From Armatimonadota bacterium (GTDB taxonomy: Bacteria > Armatimonadota > Fimbriimonadia > Fimbriimonadales > ATM1): a stretch of 64,000 nt of DNA. The stretch is from the NCBI GenBank assembly GCA_003577165.1, contig QEUM01000001.1:248001-312000 (forward strand). The letters are read 5' to 3'. The notes beneath the pieces were generated by a model that was not told where the DNA came from, did not search any database, and saw only the letters and a list, made by a program, of their open reading frames with translations. Below, piece after piece: positions 3,104 through 30,015 of this stretch (positions are counted from its first letter, which is position 1; every line of letters starts with the position of its first letter). The translations under genes were made by a program, and so were the position numbers.

Positions 3104-4759
3104 ATGGGTGGAATGCTATTAAGGCTGCGTGCCTGGTGGGAAACCGCGGACCGGACCACGAAGACGGTAACAATCGTCGGTGGTGGTCTGTTCGCCGCGC
3201 TTCTGGTGATCGTCTTTTACACTTCGAGCACGCCGAACATGGAAGTTCTCTTCCCTCGGCTCGAAGCCGCGGAGCAGGGACGCATCATCCAGAAGCTCCA
3301 AGAACTGAAGGTCCCGTATCAACAGGACTCGGACGGGAGCATTCTGGTGCCTGCGCATCAGGTGATGGAGACGCGAGCCAAACTCGCGGTCGATGGCATT
3401 CCGACTTCGGGCGCGCTCGGCAACGTTCGTCTCGACAGCATGGGCTTCACAGACCCGGCCGCGCTCCAAGACGAGAAACTGCGAGTCGCAAAGGAAGAGG
3501 AACTCGAAAAGACGATCAACTTCATGTCCGCGATCGCCTCGAGCAAGGTCCACATCACTCCCGGCACAGACTCTCCGTTTGCCGACCTCGCCGAGCCGCC
3601 GAGCGCGAGCGTCCTCATTCAGCTTCGTCCGGGCGTGACCAACGGAGCCGAGGTCGCTGAGACCATCGTTCACACCGTCACAGGCGCAGTCCAAGGTCTA
3701 AAGCCGGAGAACGTCTCGGTCTCCGATGCTGAGGGAACGCTGCTCTGGGACGGAACCAGCGATACGGACGGCGGGACAGGCATCGCAAGCAAGAAGCGCC
3801 AAGCGGAACTCGCCGAAGCGGCGCGACTCGAGCGCGAAATCCAAGCGATGATCGGTCGAGTCGTCGGATCGGGCAAGGCCACCGTCAGCGCGGTGGTCGA
3901 GATGAATTTCGACACAGAGAACGTGAGCGAAGTCGCGGAGAATCCTACGAAGAACGCCACGTCGAGCGCAACGGTTACTGAGTCTATGCAGGATGGATCG
4001 GCTCCACCTGCCGGCGGCGTCGCTTCTGCAGGCGGAGCGCCGGCAATCGCGGGTGGGGGCACGCCGGGATCGGGGAATTACCAACTTTCGCAAAGCCACG
4101 CCGTATTCGGCGGAACCAAGACCACCAGTCAGAGGATCGTCGCCCCTGGCAAGATCACGGCCGCGAGGGTCAGCATTCTGCTCGACCAGTCCGCCGCGCA
4201 GAGCGCGAAGCAGATTGAGCAGTACGCTTCCAATCTGATCGGCGCGGACGGCACGAATCCGGCCTTCAAGGTCGCTCTGGCCACCGCCGGATTCGACCAG
4301 ACAGCGGCCGAAGAGACGAAGAAGCAACTCGCAAGCGCACAGTCCGGTCAACTCATGCAGCGGCTGATCTCTCTCATTCCCGTTCTCGCGCTCGTCGTCG
4401 TCGGCTTCCTGGTTGTGAAAGCGATCGCGAAGACAGCGAGCAACAATTCCAGCGTGCTCGTCGCCGCTGCCGCCCTGCCAGGCGGGCGCGGAGGATTCGC
4501 GCGAGTCTCGAACGTGGACGGCGGAGGGGTTCCGTCGGAAGCGATGTCGACCGCGATCGCACGACCGGCCGACGTTTCGGATGAACAAGCGTCCCACCAA
4601 GCGAGGGTCAAGCGGATTCGGCGCGCGATGGAACGCGAGGTCGCCGAAATCCCGGAGAAGTTCGACGCTGAATTGGAAGCGATTCTGTTGATGGCGGATG
4701 AACGCCCTGAATCCGTCGCGCTGCTCGTCAAGAGTTGGTTGCTGGAGGAAACGAGATAA
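3104..4759 (+). CDS. fliF: Flagellar MS-ring protein FliF
   Basis: The 551-residue FliF builds the membrane-embedded MS ring on which the basal body and export gate assemble. A first membrane segment lies near residues 21-40 and a second near 425-445, with the two ring-building modules and the periplasmic loop between them. The cytoplasmic tail (about 500-551) ends in the FliG-binding helices (ELEAILLMADERPESVALLV). An alternative ATG lies nine bases downstream. The stop overlaps the fliG start by one base (TAATG). Confidence 0.97.
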   Translation: MGGMLLRLRAWWETADRTTKTVTIVGGGLFAALLVIVFYTSSTPNMEVLFPRLEAAEQGRIIQKLQELKVPYQQDSDGSILVPAHQVMETRAKLAVDGIPTSGALGNVRLDSMGFTDPAALQDEKLRVAKEEELEKTINFMSAIASSKVHITPGTDSPFADLAEPPSASVLIQLRPGVTNGAEVAETIVHTVTGAVQGLKPENVSVSDAEGTLLWDGTSDTDGGTGIASKKRQAELAEAARLEREIQAMIGRVVGSGKATVSAVVEMNFDTENVSEVAENPTKNATSSATVTESMQDGSAPPAGGVASAGGAPAIAGGGTPGSGNYQLSQSHAVFGGTKTTSQRIVAPGKITAARVSILLDQSAAQSAKQIEQYASNLIGADGTNPAFKVALATAGFDQTAAEETKKQLASAQSGQLMQRLISLIPVLALVVVGFLVVKAIAKTASNNSSVLVAAAALPGGRGGFARVSNVDGGGVPSEAMSTAIARPADVSDEQASHQARVKRIRRAMEREVAEIPEKFDAELEAILLMADERPESVALLVKSWLLEETR

Positions 4760-5769
4760 TGAGGCCGGATCCACACGCTGTCGGGAATCGCGCGAAGGCC
4801 GCCATCATGATGATGGTGCTCGGCCCCGACCTAAGCGCAAAAGTCATGCACTACCTCGACGAGGATCAGGTAGAGCAGATCACGCTTGAGATCGCCAGGC
4901 TCGACCGGATCACGCCCGAAACTCGAACGAAGGTCATCTCCGAATTCCACAACCTCGCGCTCGCGCAAGATTTCATCGCGGAGGGGGGGTCCGAGCAAGC
5001 GAGGAGGCTCGTGGAGGCAGCGTTTGGAAAGTCGCGGGCCGACGACATCATGGATCGCATCACGCATGCGCTTCAGGTCGTGCCCTTCGACTTCCTCAGG
5101 CGTGCAGATCCATCCCAATTAGCCACCTTTCTACAGGAAGAACACCCGCAAACGATCGCCCTGGTCCTCGCCTACCTTCCGGCCAACGTAGCGGCCATGG
5201 CGCTCAGCAACTTCCCCGGCGAGATGAGAGCCGAGATCGCCGAGCGGATCGCGATGATGGATCGGACTCCGCCCGACGTAATTCACCGTGTCGAACGCGT
5301 ACTTCAGAAGAAGTTCTCGAACATTGCGCAGTCGGACATGGGCACCGTCGGCGGCGTAAAGGCGCTCGTCGACCTTCTCAATCGAGTCGACCGTGGCACG
5401 GAGCGCAAGATCCTCGAGGCGCTCAACCAAACGAATCCTGAACTCGCGAGCGAGGTCATGAACTTGATGTTCGTGTTCGAGGATATCGTCAACCTAGACG
5501 ATCGGGCCGTCCAGCAGATTCTGAGGGAAGTCGAAGTGAAGGAACTCGCCCTCGCCTTGAAGGGAACGAGCCCGGAAGTGCAGTCGAAGATTTTCAACAA
5601 CATGTCGGAGCGGGCCGCATCCATGGTGAAGGAAGACATGGAGTTCATGGGGCCGGTGAAGATGAAAAACGTCGAGGAGGCGCAACAGAAGATTGTGGCC
5701 GTAATCCGAAGGCTGGAAGAAGCGGGCGAGATTTCGATTGGCAGAGGAGACGAGGATGTTCTCATCTAA
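4759..5769 (+). CDS. fliG: Flagellar motor switch protein FliG
   Basis: FliG is the rotor protein of the C-ring that couples stator action to rotation. The middle domain shows EEHPQTIALVLAYLP, and the C-terminal domain carries the charged torque helix around FEDIVNLDDRAVQQILREV. I choose the ATG at 4759, which has GGAGG ten bases before it and gives 336 residues, over a TTG 24 bases upstream. It overlaps fliF by one base and fliH by fourteen. Confidence 0.97.
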   Translation: MRPDPHAVGNRAKAAIMMMVLGPDLSAKVMHYLDEDQVEQITLEIARLDRITPETRTKVISEFHNLALAQDFIAEGGSEQARRLVEAAFGKSRADDIMDRITHALQVVPFDFLRRADPSQLATFLQEEHPQTIALVLAYLPANVAAMALSNFPGEMRAEIAERIAMMDRTPPDVIHRVERVLQKKFSNIAQSDMGTVGGVKALVDLLNRVDRGTERKILEALNQTNPELASEVMNLMFVFEDIVNLDDRAVQQILREVEVKELALALKGTSPEVQSKIFNNMSERAASMVKEDMEFMGPVKMKNVEEAQQKIVAVIRRLEEAGEISIGRGDEDVLI

Positions 5770-24194: not shown

Positions 24195-25076
24195 TTAGGC
24201 AGCGCTGCCGTCGTAGGTGTGCATCTGGCTTCTTCCCTTTCGCTTCGCTTCGTAGAGCGCTTCGTCCGCATAGGCGGTCAACTGGTCGGCCGTACAACCG
24301 GGAAAGCTCTCGGCGATGCCGATGCTCAACGTGTACGGCACCGGGTCCGTCTGTTCCCTCGAAGCCTCCAGAACGCGCTCTGAGATTCGGATCGCAGTAG
24401 GCAGGTCGGCGTCCACTAAGAGCGCCGCGAACTCGTCTCCGCCCAACCGGGCCAGGAAGTCCCCACTCCGAAGATTCGCCTTCAGCGACGAAGCGACCCT
24501 TCGCAGGACCGAATCCCCCTCGGAGTGCCCGTACCGGTCGTTGAGCCGCTTGAAGCGGTCCACGTCCATCATCAGGAGGGCCATCGGCCTGCCTGACTTC
24601 GAGAACGCCTCGACAGCCCTACGAAGCCTCTCTTGAAAGGCGCGGCGGTTTCCGAGCCCCGTGAGCGGGTCCGTAAGGGCGAGTTTCTCCAGCCGCCGGT
24701 TGGCGTCCAGCAGCTTGGCGTTGTCGGACTCCAGTTCGTGGAGGCAGGCCACGACCTGGGCGGCCGAGTCCACGAGCCGATCGTTCATCTCGTCGCTCCG
24801 CTTTAGCCTCGCCTCGAGGAGTTCCGCCCTTTCGTGCGTTCTGGCTACCAGAGCCGCGAGCGCCTCGTTCCGCCTTCTGATCGCAAGCGCAAGTTCTCGA
24901 ACCGGCGATGGGGTCCAAGAAGGCAGTGACAGTCCGGAACTTGACTCATCACTCATGAGTTCCGACGCCAAAAGCTTGAGTGATCTGCGAAGGTTGCGCG
25001 TCGTCAACCAAGCGACGACGCAAAGCAGGACTGAGGCCGCAGAGATTAACGCTAACGTAATGGATTCGGTAGCCAT
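24195..25076 (-). CDS. Membrane-anchored diguanylate cyclase (GGDEF)
   Basis: The 293-residue protein has one N-terminal membrane helix (residues 7-26), a coiled-coil region (about 75-130) and a complete GGDEF domain. The domain begins with LTDPLTGLGNRRAF, contains MMDVDRFKRLNDRYGH, and has an intact GGDEF. An RxxD product-inhibition site (RSGD) stands exactly five residues before the GGDEF. It should make cyclic di-GMP. With only one membrane helix and no sensor domain, its signal may come through the coiled coil. The gap upstream (25077-25299) has no gene. Confidence 0.94.
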   Translation of the reverse strand: MATESITLALISAASVLLCVVAWLTTRNLRRSLKLLASELMSDESSSGLSLPSWTPSPVRELALAIRRRNEALAALVARTHERAELLEARLKRSDEMNDRLVDSAAQVVACLHELESDNAKLLDANRRLEKLALTDPLTGLGNRRAFQERLRRAVEAFSKSGRPMALLMMDVDRFKRLNDRYGHSEGDSVLRRVASSLKANLRSGDFLARLGGDEFAALLVDADLPTAIRISERVLEASREQTDPVPYTLSIGIAESFPGCTADQLTAYADEALYEAKRKGRSQMHTYDGSAA

Positions 25077-25299: not shown

Positions 25300-26514
25300 A
25301 TGCCGAGGTTTGCATACAACGCTGTCGATCCATCAGGACGATCCATGAAGGGCGTCCTGGAAGCGGAAAGCGAGGCGTTTGCTCTCCAGAAACTTCACGA
25401 CCAGCAACTCCACGTAACGGACATTCGCGAGACGCGAGCCAAGGGCGAACCTCGAAGCGGCGGCCTCTTCAAGCCCAACAAGGCAAAGCTCAAGAACGTC
25501 GTGGTTTTCAGCCGCCAGTTCGCGACGATGGTGGACGCAGGAATCCCGATTCTCCGGTGCTTAGAGATTCTCAGCACGCAGACGAAGGACCCCGTCCTCA
25601 AGCAATCTGCGGCCGAGGTTGCAGGAGACGTGCGCGGAGGACTTACGTTGAATGAGTCGCTGGCCAAGCACCCGACCGTATTCAACAAACTCTATGTCAA
25701 CATGATTCGCGCGGCCGAAGTTGGCGGCATCCTAGACATCATTCTGGAAAGGCTTGCAAGCTTCCTCGAATACGAACTGGAAGTTCGAGGCAAGATCAAG
25801 AGCGCCATGATGTACCCCGTCCTGGTGCTCTGCTTCTCGGTCCTCATGCTCTTCGCACTCTTTACGTTCGTCCTTCCGAAGTTCAAGGAGATCTTCAAGG
25901 GCATGGACGTGGAGATCCCGCCCGTCACCAACTTTCTGTTCAGCGTCGGCGACATCTTCCAAGCATATTGGTGGCTATTCCTGATCCTTGGCGCAGGGCT
26001 CTTCGTCGGGGTGCACATGTGGAAGCGAACGGAGAAGGGCGCTTATCAACTCGACTTCATGAAGTTGAAGTTTCCCATCGTTGGCGAACTCGTCCTCAAG
26101 ATGTCGATTGCACGTTTCAGTCGAACCTTTGGCACCCTCATCTCCTCAGGCATTCCCATAATGCGCGCGCTGGAGATCGTCGGCGAGACTTCGGGCAACC
26201 GGGTCATCGTCGAGGCGATCGAGAACTGCCGCGTCTCCATTCGAGAGGGTCAGAAACTGAGCGCCCCGATGGCTACGAGCGGCCTCTTCCCGGCCATGGT
26301 TACGCACATGGTGGACATCGGCGAAGAGAGCGGCCGGCTCAGCGAGATGCTCGTGAAGGTCGGTGAGTTCTACGATGCTGAGGTCGAATCCACCGTCAAG
26401 GGACTCACTTCGATGATCGAGCCGATGCTCATCATCTTCATGGGAATCATCGTCGGATTCATTGCGATCTCCGTCATGACGCCCATCTTCAAACTCGTCA
26501 ACTCGGTCAAGTAG
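25300..26514 (+). CDS. pilC: Type IV pilus / type II secretion inner-membrane platform protein PilC
   Basis: The 404-residue protein is the polytopic platform of a type IV pilus or type II secretion system. Two repeated GspF domains are seen, each starting with the pattern FSRQFATMVDAGIPILRCLEI and FSRTFGTLISSGIPIMRALEI. Membrane helices lie near residues 170-190, 220-240 and 375-395, and the ending is typical (MTPIFKLVNSVK). GGAGGG precedes the ATG. The ATPase and pilin genes are not next to it. The sigma-GGDEF gene follows after a structured leader. Confidence 0.93.
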   Translation: MPRFAYNAVDPSGRSMKGVLEAESEAFALQKLHDQQLHVTDIRETRAKGEPRSGGLFKPNKAKLKNVVVFSRQFATMVDAGIPILRCLEILSTQTKDPVLKQSAAEVAGDVRGGLTLNESLAKHPTVFNKLYVNMIRAAEVGGILDIILERLASFLEYELEVRGKIKSAMMYPVLVLCFSVLMLFALFTFVLPKFKEIFKGMDVEIPPVTNFLFSVGDIFQAYWWLFLILGAGLFVGVHMWKRTEKGAYQLDFMKLKFPIVGELVLKMSIARFSRTFGTLISSGIPIMRALEIVGETSGNRVIVEAIENCRVSIREGQKLSAPMATSGLFPAMVTHMVDIGEESGRLSEMLVKVGEFYDAEVESTVKGLTSMIEPMLIIFMGIIVGFIAISVMTPIFKLVNSVK

Positions 26515-26534
26515 GCCGAACGATTTTCGTCGTC

Positions 26535-26628
26535 CCGCCTCTGCGAACACGGATGTAGCATCGCAGAGGCGGATCTGAAGCGGCTAGGAAGGCCGCTTCG
26601 ACAGGATCGCCGGAAGGAACCGGCGGTC
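26535..26628 (+). promoter_or_regulatory. Three-hairpin leader with GGA in every loop, before the sigma-GGDEF gene
   Basis: Three consecutive hairpins fill the gap between pilC and the next start. P1 (26535-26572) has a 12-bp stem and a 14-base loop containing ACACGGATGT. P2 (26577-26599) has an 8-bp stem and loop TAGGAAG. P3 (26605-26628) has a 9-bp stem with one G-U pair and loop AAGGAA. GGA in hairpin loops is what CsrA/RsmA proteins bind, and the P1 loop differs from the known high-affinity core ACARGGAUGU at one base. No T-run follows P1, so a simple pilC terminator is unlikely. The sequence could also be a separate small RNA. Confidence 0.55.
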
Positions 26629-26646
26629 GAATCAACGGAGGGATTA

Positions 26647-27903
26647 ATGTCGAGCAGCGCTGACCGCGTGAACTACGCGGAGCATCTGGTCCAGGAGTAC
26701 GTGCGCACGCGGGACACCGACGTCCGCGACAGAATCGTGCGTCTGCATACAGGCATGGTGGAGCGAATCGCGCGGCGATACGCCGGGCTCGAGCCCCATG
26801 AAGACCTCGTGCAGGCGGGATTCCTTGGGCTGCTGAATGCGCTGAATATGTTCGAGCCGCAGAAGGGCGTCAGGTTCAACACGTACGCGACGCACCTCGT
26901 AGCAGGCTCGATCAAGCACCACCTCCGAGACAAGACGAAGATCATTCGCGAGCCTGCCTGGCTTCAAGAAGTGCGGCATCGCGTGAACCGCACGGCTGCA
27001 CAACTTCAGCAGGAGTTCGGCCGCGGCGCCTCCCCCGAGGAGATCGCCAATCGCACGGGTCTTCCCAAGGAAACCGTCGAAGAGGTGCTGTCCACGGATG
27101 ATCTCTTCCGCGTTGCAAGCCTCACAGCCCCCCCCTCCTCGGAAGAAGACGATGGCGAGCAGTTCGACCTGGGCGACGATGGCAGGGATCAGATCTCCGT
27201 CGAAGACAGGTCCGTCCTCGAGAATGCGTTCCAGCAACTCCGCGACCTTGAGCGAACCGTGCTCGGCCTGTTCCACTTCGAGGACCTGAACCAAACCGAG
27301 ATCGCCGCGCGGCTGGGAATCTCCGGGAACTACGTCTCACATGTCTTGCGCCAAGCCACGGCGAGGCTCCGCGCGATCTTTGCGAACGACGATCGAATCG
27401 GCCGGGCTCTCATGAAGTCGGAGGGAGATCCCCAAACCGACGTTTTGTGCGAAGAGACGGGCGCGTACATGGAGGCTTACCTTCTCGCCCGACTCGACGA
27501 GGAGTGCGCTCGGGCATCCTGCAACGATTCCGTCGTTGGATTTGTCCATGTTCGTTTCGACGGGCTTGACAGCCTGAGCACTTTCTACGGGCCCACGGCC
27601 GTGATGTCGTTCCTTGCAGACGCTGCCGAGTTCCTAAGGGCCGGCGTGCGCAGGCTCGACATGGTCGGCCGTCTCGGCTCCACCGGATTCGGCATCATCC
27701 TTCCGGGCGCTGGAGAGTCCGTGGCATCCGTGCGAGAGCGCCTCGCGAGCCGCCTCACAGCGTGGGTCAGAAGGTCTGTCGGCTCGAGCAACTCCGTGAG
27801 AGTCATGATCGGAGACGCGTACTATCCGGCAAACGGACGCAACGCCAAGCGAATCGTCGAGTCGATCCACCTGGAACGGCTCGACGAGAAGAAGGCGGCG
27901 TAA
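26647..27903 (+). CDS. SigB/F-type sigma factor fused to a degenerate GGDEF domain
   Basis: Residues 1-245 are a sigma-70 factor of the SigB/SigF/SigG type. Region 2 has HEDLVQAGFLGLLNALNMFEP and VRFNTYATHLVAGSIKHHLRD; region 3 follows; region 4 has LNQTEIAARLGISGNYVSHVL. Residues about 262-410 follow the GGDEF fold pattern (FVHVRFDGLDSL, FLRAGVRRLDMVGRLGSTGF, IILPGAGESV). The signature is GSTGF (344-348) and the usual GH..GD region is lost, so it should not make c-di-GMP. It could still bind a nucleotide or act in dimerisation. GGAGGG precedes the ATG. Confidence 0.85.
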   Translation: MSSSADRVNYAEHLVQEYVRTRDTDVRDRIVRLHTGMVERIARRYAGLEPHEDLVQAGFLGLLNALNMFEPQKGVRFNTYATHLVAGSIKHHLRDKTKIIREPAWLQEVRHRVNRTAAQLQQEFGRGASPEEIANRTGLPKETVEEVLSTDDLFRVASLTAPPSSEEDDGEQFDLGDDGRDQISVEDRSVLENAFQQLRDLERTVLGLFHFEDLNQTEIAARLGISGNYVSHVLRQATARLRAIFANDDRIGRALMKSEGDPQTDVLCEETGAYMEAYLLARLDEECARASCNDSVVGFVHVRFDGLDSLSTFYGPTAVMSFLADAAEFLRAGVRRLDMVGRLGSTGFGIILPGAGESVASVRERLASRLTAWVRRSVGSSNSVRVMIGDAYYPANGRNAKRIVESIHLERLDEKKAA

Positions 27904-29060: not shown

Positions 29061-29900
29061 CTACGACTTGCGACGTCTCGAGGCTAGCCATGCGAGGCCG
29101 ATGCCGAGGCCGAGTAGGCTTGTCGGCTCCGGCACGATTCCGGGCGCCCAGGCAGCGGCCGAAAACGTGCCACTTCCTGTAAACGGCGATGCGATCGTGC
29201 CGACCTGAGTTCCGCTCGAAAGGTCGAACACATAGAAATTCGCCTGCGTAGTGTTTGGTCCGTCCGTAACGAAATACGCGCGGCCTCCACCGACCGCAAG
29301 TCCATCGATGTCCGTTTCGCCTGCCGGGTACCCGGCGATAAACGTCTCCGATCCGCCAACGTAGTCGATAGAGTACAGGCCGCGGCCGGTCGATGGCGTG
29401 TCGGTCAGACCGTACAACTTCGCAGTGTCGGGATCGTAGTCGAGCCCTCCGAAGTCGTACGTCGAGGCGTACGTGTATACAAGCGAGGCGACTCCGGTCG
29501 AAGGGTCAATCTCATACACAGCCTCCGTCGAGATATTTCGGGTCCCCAGCAGCTTCCCGGTAGTCGGGTTGTAGCCGAGGCCAACGAAGTTGACGGTGGC
29601 GCTGTTGTAGGTCATTGCGACCGAATTGATGGTCGGCGAACCGCCGAGCAAGTCGGAATATGTCGCGCTGTACAAAGTGGAACCGTTGTTCCAGTACAGG
29701 ATTGAATTGACGTTGTCGGCAGCCATTCCCCAGGGCTTAGCAGTCGAGCCTGAATTCGCATACAGCGGGCTTGCGACGCCCGTGGTCACGTCAATGGCGT
29801 AGATGGTCGCTGTTCCGGACTGGTCGTTACCCACGATCAGTTGTGCGGATGCACCGCCGGGAATCAGCGCCAGTGCGATAAGCGCTACTTGCGATCTCAT
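29061..29900 (-). CDS. PEP-CTERM surface protein, beta-propeller-like
   Basis: The 279-residue protein has a signal peptide (MRSQVALIALALIPGGASAQ) and ends in VPEPTSLLGLGIG followed by a hydrophobic stretch and RRRKS, the PEP-CTERM sorting signal. Between them, repeated strands such as ATIYAIDVTTGVAS, AVYEIDPSTGVASLVYT and GLDYDPDTAKLYGL suggest blades of a beta-propeller. I assign no enzyme activity. The ATG at 29900 has AGGAGG eight bases before it; an upstream ATG at 29927 has none. It is the second exosortase substrate in the window. Confidence 0.85.
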   Translation of the reverse strand: MRSQVALIALALIPGGASAQLIVGNDQSGTATIYAIDVTTGVASPLYANSGSTAKPWGMAADNVNSILYWNNGSTLYSATYSDLLGGSPTINSVAMTYNSATVNFVGLGYNPTTGKLLGTRNISTEAVYEIDPSTGVASLVYTYASTYDFGGLDYDPDTAKLYGLTDTPSTGRGLYSIDYVGGSETFIAGYPAGETDIDGLAVGGGRAYFVTDGPNTTQANFYVFDLSSGTQVGTIASPFTGSGTFSAAAWAPGIVPEPTSLLGLGIGLAWLASRRRKS

Positions 29901-30015
29901 TGTCCAAACCTCCTTTCGTTCATCCACAAGATCGGTGGATCTTTACACTCGAGACGATACTACAGGTATGTGGGTAGTTAGCGTACCGGCCAAAGTACCA
30001 GGTTTGCCAGCCAGC

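Follow-up and report, generated by a model that had tools for sequence, protein, structure and literature searches.

To our knowledge, c-di-GMP controls transcription through activators, repressors, or, in the case of WhiG, an anti-sigma factor. In Rubrobacter, the WhiG/RsiG switch is linked to genes for a type IV pilus and for cyclases/phosphodiesterases (PMC8325347). In DgcR, residues R206 and D209 hold dimeric c-di-GMP in the crystal, and the I-site mutants in which they are changed (6zxb/6zxc) are insensitive to c-di-GMP (PMC8041772). The orphan Streptomyces sigma factor sigma-AntA ends in Ala-Ala in 67 of 71 orthologs, and its degradation by ClpXP has been proven (PMC7142297). CsrA binds GGA in hairpin loops, with the consensus RUACARGGAUGU (PMC7652899).

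Here we describe a gene, located in a 64,000-nucleotide stretch of Armatimonadota DNA (the window), in which a sigma factor and a GGDEF-fold domain form a single protein, referred to below as sigma-GGDEF. Sequence, predicted fold, and conservation establish the fusion, its dead active site, an invariant I-site, a pilus gene neighborhood, a CsrA-type leader, and an Ala-Ala tail (Table 1). An earlier, sequence-only reading of this DNA had recognized the fusion and its altered signature; the I-site, the CsrA-type leader, the -AA degron candidate, the pilus neighborhood, and the phylum-wide conservation go beyond it. The literature that we searched, which covers few subscription journals, holds no description of such a fusion. 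We consider it rather likely that the sigma factor, SigB/SigF-like in type, has a c-di-GMP receptor built into its own chain, a domain in which catalysis is lost and RxxD kept, and that it is tied to type IV pili.

Table 1. Features of the sigma-GGDEF locus, in window coordinates
Feature	Position	Strand	Basis
Canonical diguanylate cyclase (RSGDFLARLGGDEF)	24195..25076	-	PF00990, 151.9 bits
pilC (type IV pilus inner-membrane protein), conserved upstream neighbor	25300..26514	+	NCBIfam PilC, 407 bits, below the model cut-off of 700
pilC-sigma leader, 132 nt, with three strong GGA-bearing hairpins	26515..26646	+	RNA fold, z = -5.0
Leader hairpin 1, tip ACACGGAUGU, near the CsrA consensus	26535..26572	+	RNA fold
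Leader hairpin 2, loop UAGGAAG counting its closing pair	26577..26599	+	RNA fold
Leader hairpin 3, loop AAGGAA	26605..26628	+	RNA fold
Sigma-GGDEF ORF, 418 aa	26647..27903	+	Uninterrupted; ATG at 26647 behind a GGAGG-type Shine-Dalgarno
Sigma-70 regions 2, 3, and 4 (residues 1-245), closest to the SigB/SigF type	26647..27381	+	Pfam, NCBIfam, solved chain
Linker, residues 246-263, longer in class-level relatives	27382..27435	+	Alignment; pLDDT low at 255-263
Catalytically dead GGDEF-fold domain, residues 264-410	27436..27876	+	PF00990, AlphaFold2, Foldseek
I-site motif R335-R-L-D338 (primary c-di-GMP site, by alignment)	27649..27660	+	Invariance; DgcR alignment
GSTGF replacing GG[DE]EF, residues 344-348	27676..27690	+	Signature RLGSTGF, residues 342-348
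R365, possible secondary I-site residue	27739..27741	+	R in 95/101 orthologs
C-terminal Ala-Ala, candidate ClpXP degron	27895..27900	+	Tail conservation

The fused gene and its two halves

The N-terminal half belongs to the sigma-70 family, with Pfam matches to regions 2, 3, and 4 at residues 31-98, 108-167, and 194-243 (55.5, 45.9, and 48.3 bits, all above gathering) and a TIGR02937 score of 92 bits against a cut-off of 42.9. Its top-scoring NCBIfam model is SigBFG (TIGR02980), at 163.8 bits below the cut-off of 234.35, which makes the protein a relative of the SigB/SigF/SigG group and, by this rule, no member of it; the FliA/WhiG model (TIGR02479) scores 106.8 bits against a cut-off of 189.6. 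Staphylococcus aureus SigB (8x6g_H) is the nearest solved chain. The model for anti-sigma factors of the RsbW/SpoIIAB type (PF13581, HATPase_c_2) gives five matches in the genome, all in long frames, one of them above the cut-off and none near the sigma-GGDEF locus.

The C-terminal half matches PF00990 at residues 276-408 (E=2e-11, 44.5 bits against a gathering threshold of 23.8), and when searched alone it scores 46.3 bits against the same threshold, as expected of a GGDEF fold. Both halves thus exceed gathering in one ORF, in agreement with the fusion that had first been read from the letters. The C-terminal fold is likewise that of a GGDEF domain: an AlphaFold2 model of residues 256-418 (pLDDT 90.1, pTM 0.85) was matched by Foldseek to the T. 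maritima GGDEF domain 4urs_A (TM 0.74) and to PleD with c-di-GMP, 2wb4_B (TM 0.75). A model of the full-length protein has good domains and leaves their arrangement unfixed (pTM 0.40).

The change of the signature to GSTGF and the loss of GH..GD, both noticed in the initial reading, were confirmed: the metal and GTP residues and the GH..GD segment are all replaced. GG[DE]EF is kept in none of 101 aligned orthologs, every position of the signature is variable, and the metal aspartate position is D in only 11 of the 101, a loss in about 90%. The domain scores 35.1 bits with TIGR00254, below the cut-off of 37.4. With GSTGF in place of the signature, and the signature gone in every ortholog, this is not an active diguanylate cyclase by the usual marks. 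The word "degenerate," applied to the domain earlier, describes the active site only; judged by its sequence, the I-site is intact and invariant.

Distribution and origin of the fusion

About 50 of the 61 genomes of the order and about 190 of the 291 genomes of the phylum Armatimonadota (counted from the listed scores) encode a full-length fusion in which both halves are read without an internal stop, so that the two parts are found joined in relatives as well; those among the matches listed include Armatimonadetes, Fimbriimonadaceae, and Chthonomonadales. Full-length orthologs in dozens of genera rule out an assembly chimera or a chance fusion. In a tree of the sigma half, all fused proteins form one clade (support 100/98), which includes families f6 and f17 and leaves an unfused SigF-like paralog outside. 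The C-domain is absent from f17 (L218, L219) and diverged in f6 (L216, L217, L220), natural deletion cases that indicate that the sigma part can function without it. The fusion thus seems to have a single origin and to have been retained since, with occasional erosion.

The fusion is not a property of every member of the phylum, as f24 and f40 to f45 appear to have the unfused SigF-like paralog alone. Among the matches listed, which come from named genomes, none lies beyond Armatimonadota except L117, a MAG filed under Actinomycetota; it carries pilT-pilC-sigma-GGDEF, falls inside the Armatimonadota clade, and is probably misfiled. In one genome (G047, locus L037) the fusion gene is shortened to 332 aa by a frame break, reflecting either recent decay or a sequencing error. 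No plasmid record covered at least 80% of the sigma-GGDEF query.

Invariance of the I-site and co-loss with GGDEF domains

R335 and D338 are present in all 100 orthologs that reach the RxxD motif (100 of the 101 aligned are long enough to cover it), which represent about 30 families, and adjacent positions vary freely. These two residues align with R206 and D209 of DgcR, the crystallographic c-di-GMP site. R342 is found in 96 of the 101 aligned orthologs, and R365 is presumably the counterpart of PleD R390, by our own alignment. Retention of RxxD in a catalytically dead domain is the pattern of the I-site receptors PelD and PopA, and every ortholog counted here conforms to it. Canonical GGDEF domains of relatives carry RxxD in about 23 of 30 cases (counted by eye), so the motif by itself is unremarkable and its presence in the fusion could be partly inherited; what is remarkable is its invariance in a dead enzyme. 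PilZ proteins are also encoded, which implies that c-di-GMP signaling is general here.

Among the genomes listed, the fusion is also missing where GGDEF domains are missing. Defined by the lack of any GGDEF match at 1e-20, 27 of the 291 genomes are GGDEF free, and none of the 20 that are listed has the fusion (raw genome counts). These 20 belong to about 10 genera in families f1, f4, f10, f12, f13, f30, f31, f32, and f35, whose other members carry it. Five of them match the sigma-GGDEF query only at 1e-31 to 1e-40, and the three of these that were inspected (G075, G220, and G221) are unfused sigma factors. One genome, G117 (64% complete), has the fusion with a best GGDEF match no better than 7e-24 and would be an exception at a stricter cut-off. 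Two 1.5-Mb genomes, G054 and G055, retain both the fusion with its RxxD and one strong GGDEF match; their fusions (L050, L049) lack -AA and a pilC neighbor. Several complete genomes (G037, G135-137, and G139) encode cyclases and no fusion, and a strict one-to-one dependence of the fusion on c-di-GMP is unsupported, as several GGDEF-rich genomes are without it.

It had been suggested from the sequence that the domain senses a nucleotide, perhaps c-di-GMP. An invariant RxxD in a dead GGDEF domain, the co-loss with GGDEF domains, and an adjacent canonical cyclase in several family members lend this idea strong indirect support, and the C-domain probably binds c-di-GMP. Degenerate GGDEF domains are often interaction modules, and R282, E285, E286, and R289 equal the I-site in invariance in the ortholog alignment. 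Both points would suit a domain that had lost c-di-GMP binding and served in dimerization or protein docking, the docked partner being, for example, an anti-sigma factor, a PilZ protein, or a pilus ATPase. From such a module, however, neither an invariant R335 and D338 amid freely varying neighbors nor a fusion that vanishes along with GGDEF domains would be expected, and we regard it as unlikely.

Gene neighborhood

A pilC gene on the same strand lies immediately upstream of the fusion in most orthologs, the exceptions being Chthonomonadales-type families and a few others, and the order pilT-pilC-sigma recurs in other classes (L114, L116, and L117). This conserved arrangement marks a type IV pilus gene neighborhood and connects the sigma factor with type IV pili, a link that we hold to be probable. 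The initial suggestion that the protein controls surface or motility genes can be narrowed to type IV pili on these grounds.

A canonical cyclase gene is found near the fusion in the window's family, and a GGDEF gene is nearby also in G002, G005, and G006; the cyclase in the window is a likely source of c-di-GMP. Its own tail reads ...DGSAA, and -AA-ending ORFs occur in several GGDEF-bearing loci (L186-L209), a hint that cyclases may be ClpXP substrates as well. Elsewhere in the window (29061-29927, minus strand) is a gene for a secreted protein whose sorting tail, VPEPTSLLGLGIGLAWLASRRRKS, is of the PEP-CTERM type.

Leader and C-terminal tail

In 57 leaders of the order, GGA occupies 72 of 145 hairpin loops, compared with 8.9 +/- 2.7 in shuffles; among the controls, the reverse complement gave 5 of 138 and coding sequence 8 of 99. 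When every gene of the window is taken, sigma-GGDEF included, GGA is found in 12 of 90 leader hairpin loops; leaders from other classes show the signal weakly (16 of 66 loops). The stems of the sigma-GGDEF leader hairpins exceed the length favored in SELEX. All 16 genomes tested from the order encode csrA, and GGA loops together with a csrA gene form the pattern of a CsrA-controlled mRNA, which is what this transcript is predicted to be. The gene at 4735-5769 (plus strand) of the window likewise has a leader with three predicted GGA-containing hairpin loops.

The distinct C-terminal tails of the orthologs end in -AA in 84 of 97 cases and in Val-Ala in 5, and the residues before them do not align, whereas -AA ends only 20 of 418 other ORFs (5%). 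A conserved C-terminal Ala-Ala is a mark of ClpXP substrates and makes the tail a candidate degron; a ClpP gene is present in the genome. Given the GGA hairpins and these tails, control might be exerted mainly on abundance, by CsrA at translation and by ClpXP at -AA, in which case the C-domain would present the degron and c-di-GMP would play a minor part or modulate proteolysis only. There are precedents in sigma-AntA, which is degraded by ClpXP (PMC7142297), and in PopA, whose c-di-GMP-bound form is required for CtrA proteolysis (PMC7526171). Such control by itself nevertheless leaves the invariant RxxD and the GGDEF co-loss unexplained, and G054 and G055 keep RxxD without -AA, so that as a main explanation it appears distinctly improbable.

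Proposed mechanism

We favor a model in which the sigma factor carries its own receptor. In this model, canonical cyclases, among them the one in the window, would supply the c-di-GMP that binds to the I-site, probably in the form of an intercalated dimer that bridges two C-domains. Binding would alter either the engagement of RNA polymerase by the sigma regions or the availability of the tail to ClpXP, and through either change the level of holoenzyme would track c-di-GMP. Type IV pilus genes and surface genes would be among the targets. CsrA, acting via the GGA hairpins, would set translation of sigma-GGDEF, and ClpXP, acting via -AA, would remove the protein. The switch could go either way, active or inactive when bound. 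In its widest form, the proposal is that sigma factors which are direct c-di-GMP receptors, with no separate anti-sigma factor, form a class found throughout the phylum, that the synthesis of each is controlled by CsrA and its decay by ClpXP, and that the class governs the type IV pilus program of Armatimonadota; on this broader claim we are evenly divided.

Two further readings concern the former active site. Degenerate GGDEF domains can bind GTP without turnover, and the C-domain might sense GTP, c-di-AMP, or ppGpp there, but the guanine- and metal-binding positions are unconserved and the I-site alone is conserved, which makes this very improbable. Residual cyclase activity, or synthesis of another product, on a sigma factor is hardly credible in spite of the GGDEF fold and of variant motifs such as AGDEF, some of which are still active (PMC3974145), when the whole signature varies among orthologs and the metal aspartate is substituted in most.

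Conservation of this design in most of the phylum, beside pilus genes, suggests that c-di-GMP may switch a sigma factor directly. If so, a sigma factor carrying its receptor would be the shortest path from messenger to holoenzyme and a modular switch, open to domain grafting or deletion, to mutation of R335 and D338, and to an AA-to-DD change. Genetics hardly exists for this phylum, and a switch shared by much of it would also offer a handle on lifestyle control there.

Comparison with known systems

The elements of sigma-GGDEF have counterparts in several described systems. DgcR and PleD have the same fold and the same RxxD c-di-GMP site as the C-domain, but they are active cyclases in which RxxD serves product inhibition, whereas the C-domain is dead. 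PelD is likewise a dead GGDEF fold used as an I-site c-di-GMP receptor, a binding that is predicted here, but it regulates exopolysaccharide and is no transcription factor, while the domain described here is part of a sigma factor. PopA of Caulobacter, also a GGDEF-domain receptor for c-di-GMP (PMC10519070), is linked to ClpXP proteolysis of the regulator CtrA (PMC7526171); it is an adaptor that acts in trans, whereas predicted receptor, regulator, and candidate degron lie here in a single chain. Sigma-AntA of Streptomyces shares the conserved C-terminal Ala-Ala and is degraded by ClpXP (PMC7142297), but it is of the ECF type and, unlike sigma-GGDEF, has no receptor domain.

The actinobacterial WhiG-(c-di-GMP)-RsiG complex places a sigma factor, linked in Rubrobacter to type IV pilus genes, under c-di-GMP control (PMC8325347), as is proposed here. 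There, c-di-GMP sits between WhiG and a separate anti-sigma factor with the RsiG motif, whereas here the I-site GGDEF domain belongs covalently to the sigma factor; the WhiG-RsiG sigma factor is of the WhiG/FliA type, in contrast to the SigB/SigF-like one described here. Sigma-GGDEF thus resembles the receptors PelD and PopA and would meet the same need as WhiG-RsiG, yet it is neither, for its predicted receptor lies within the sigma factor itself.
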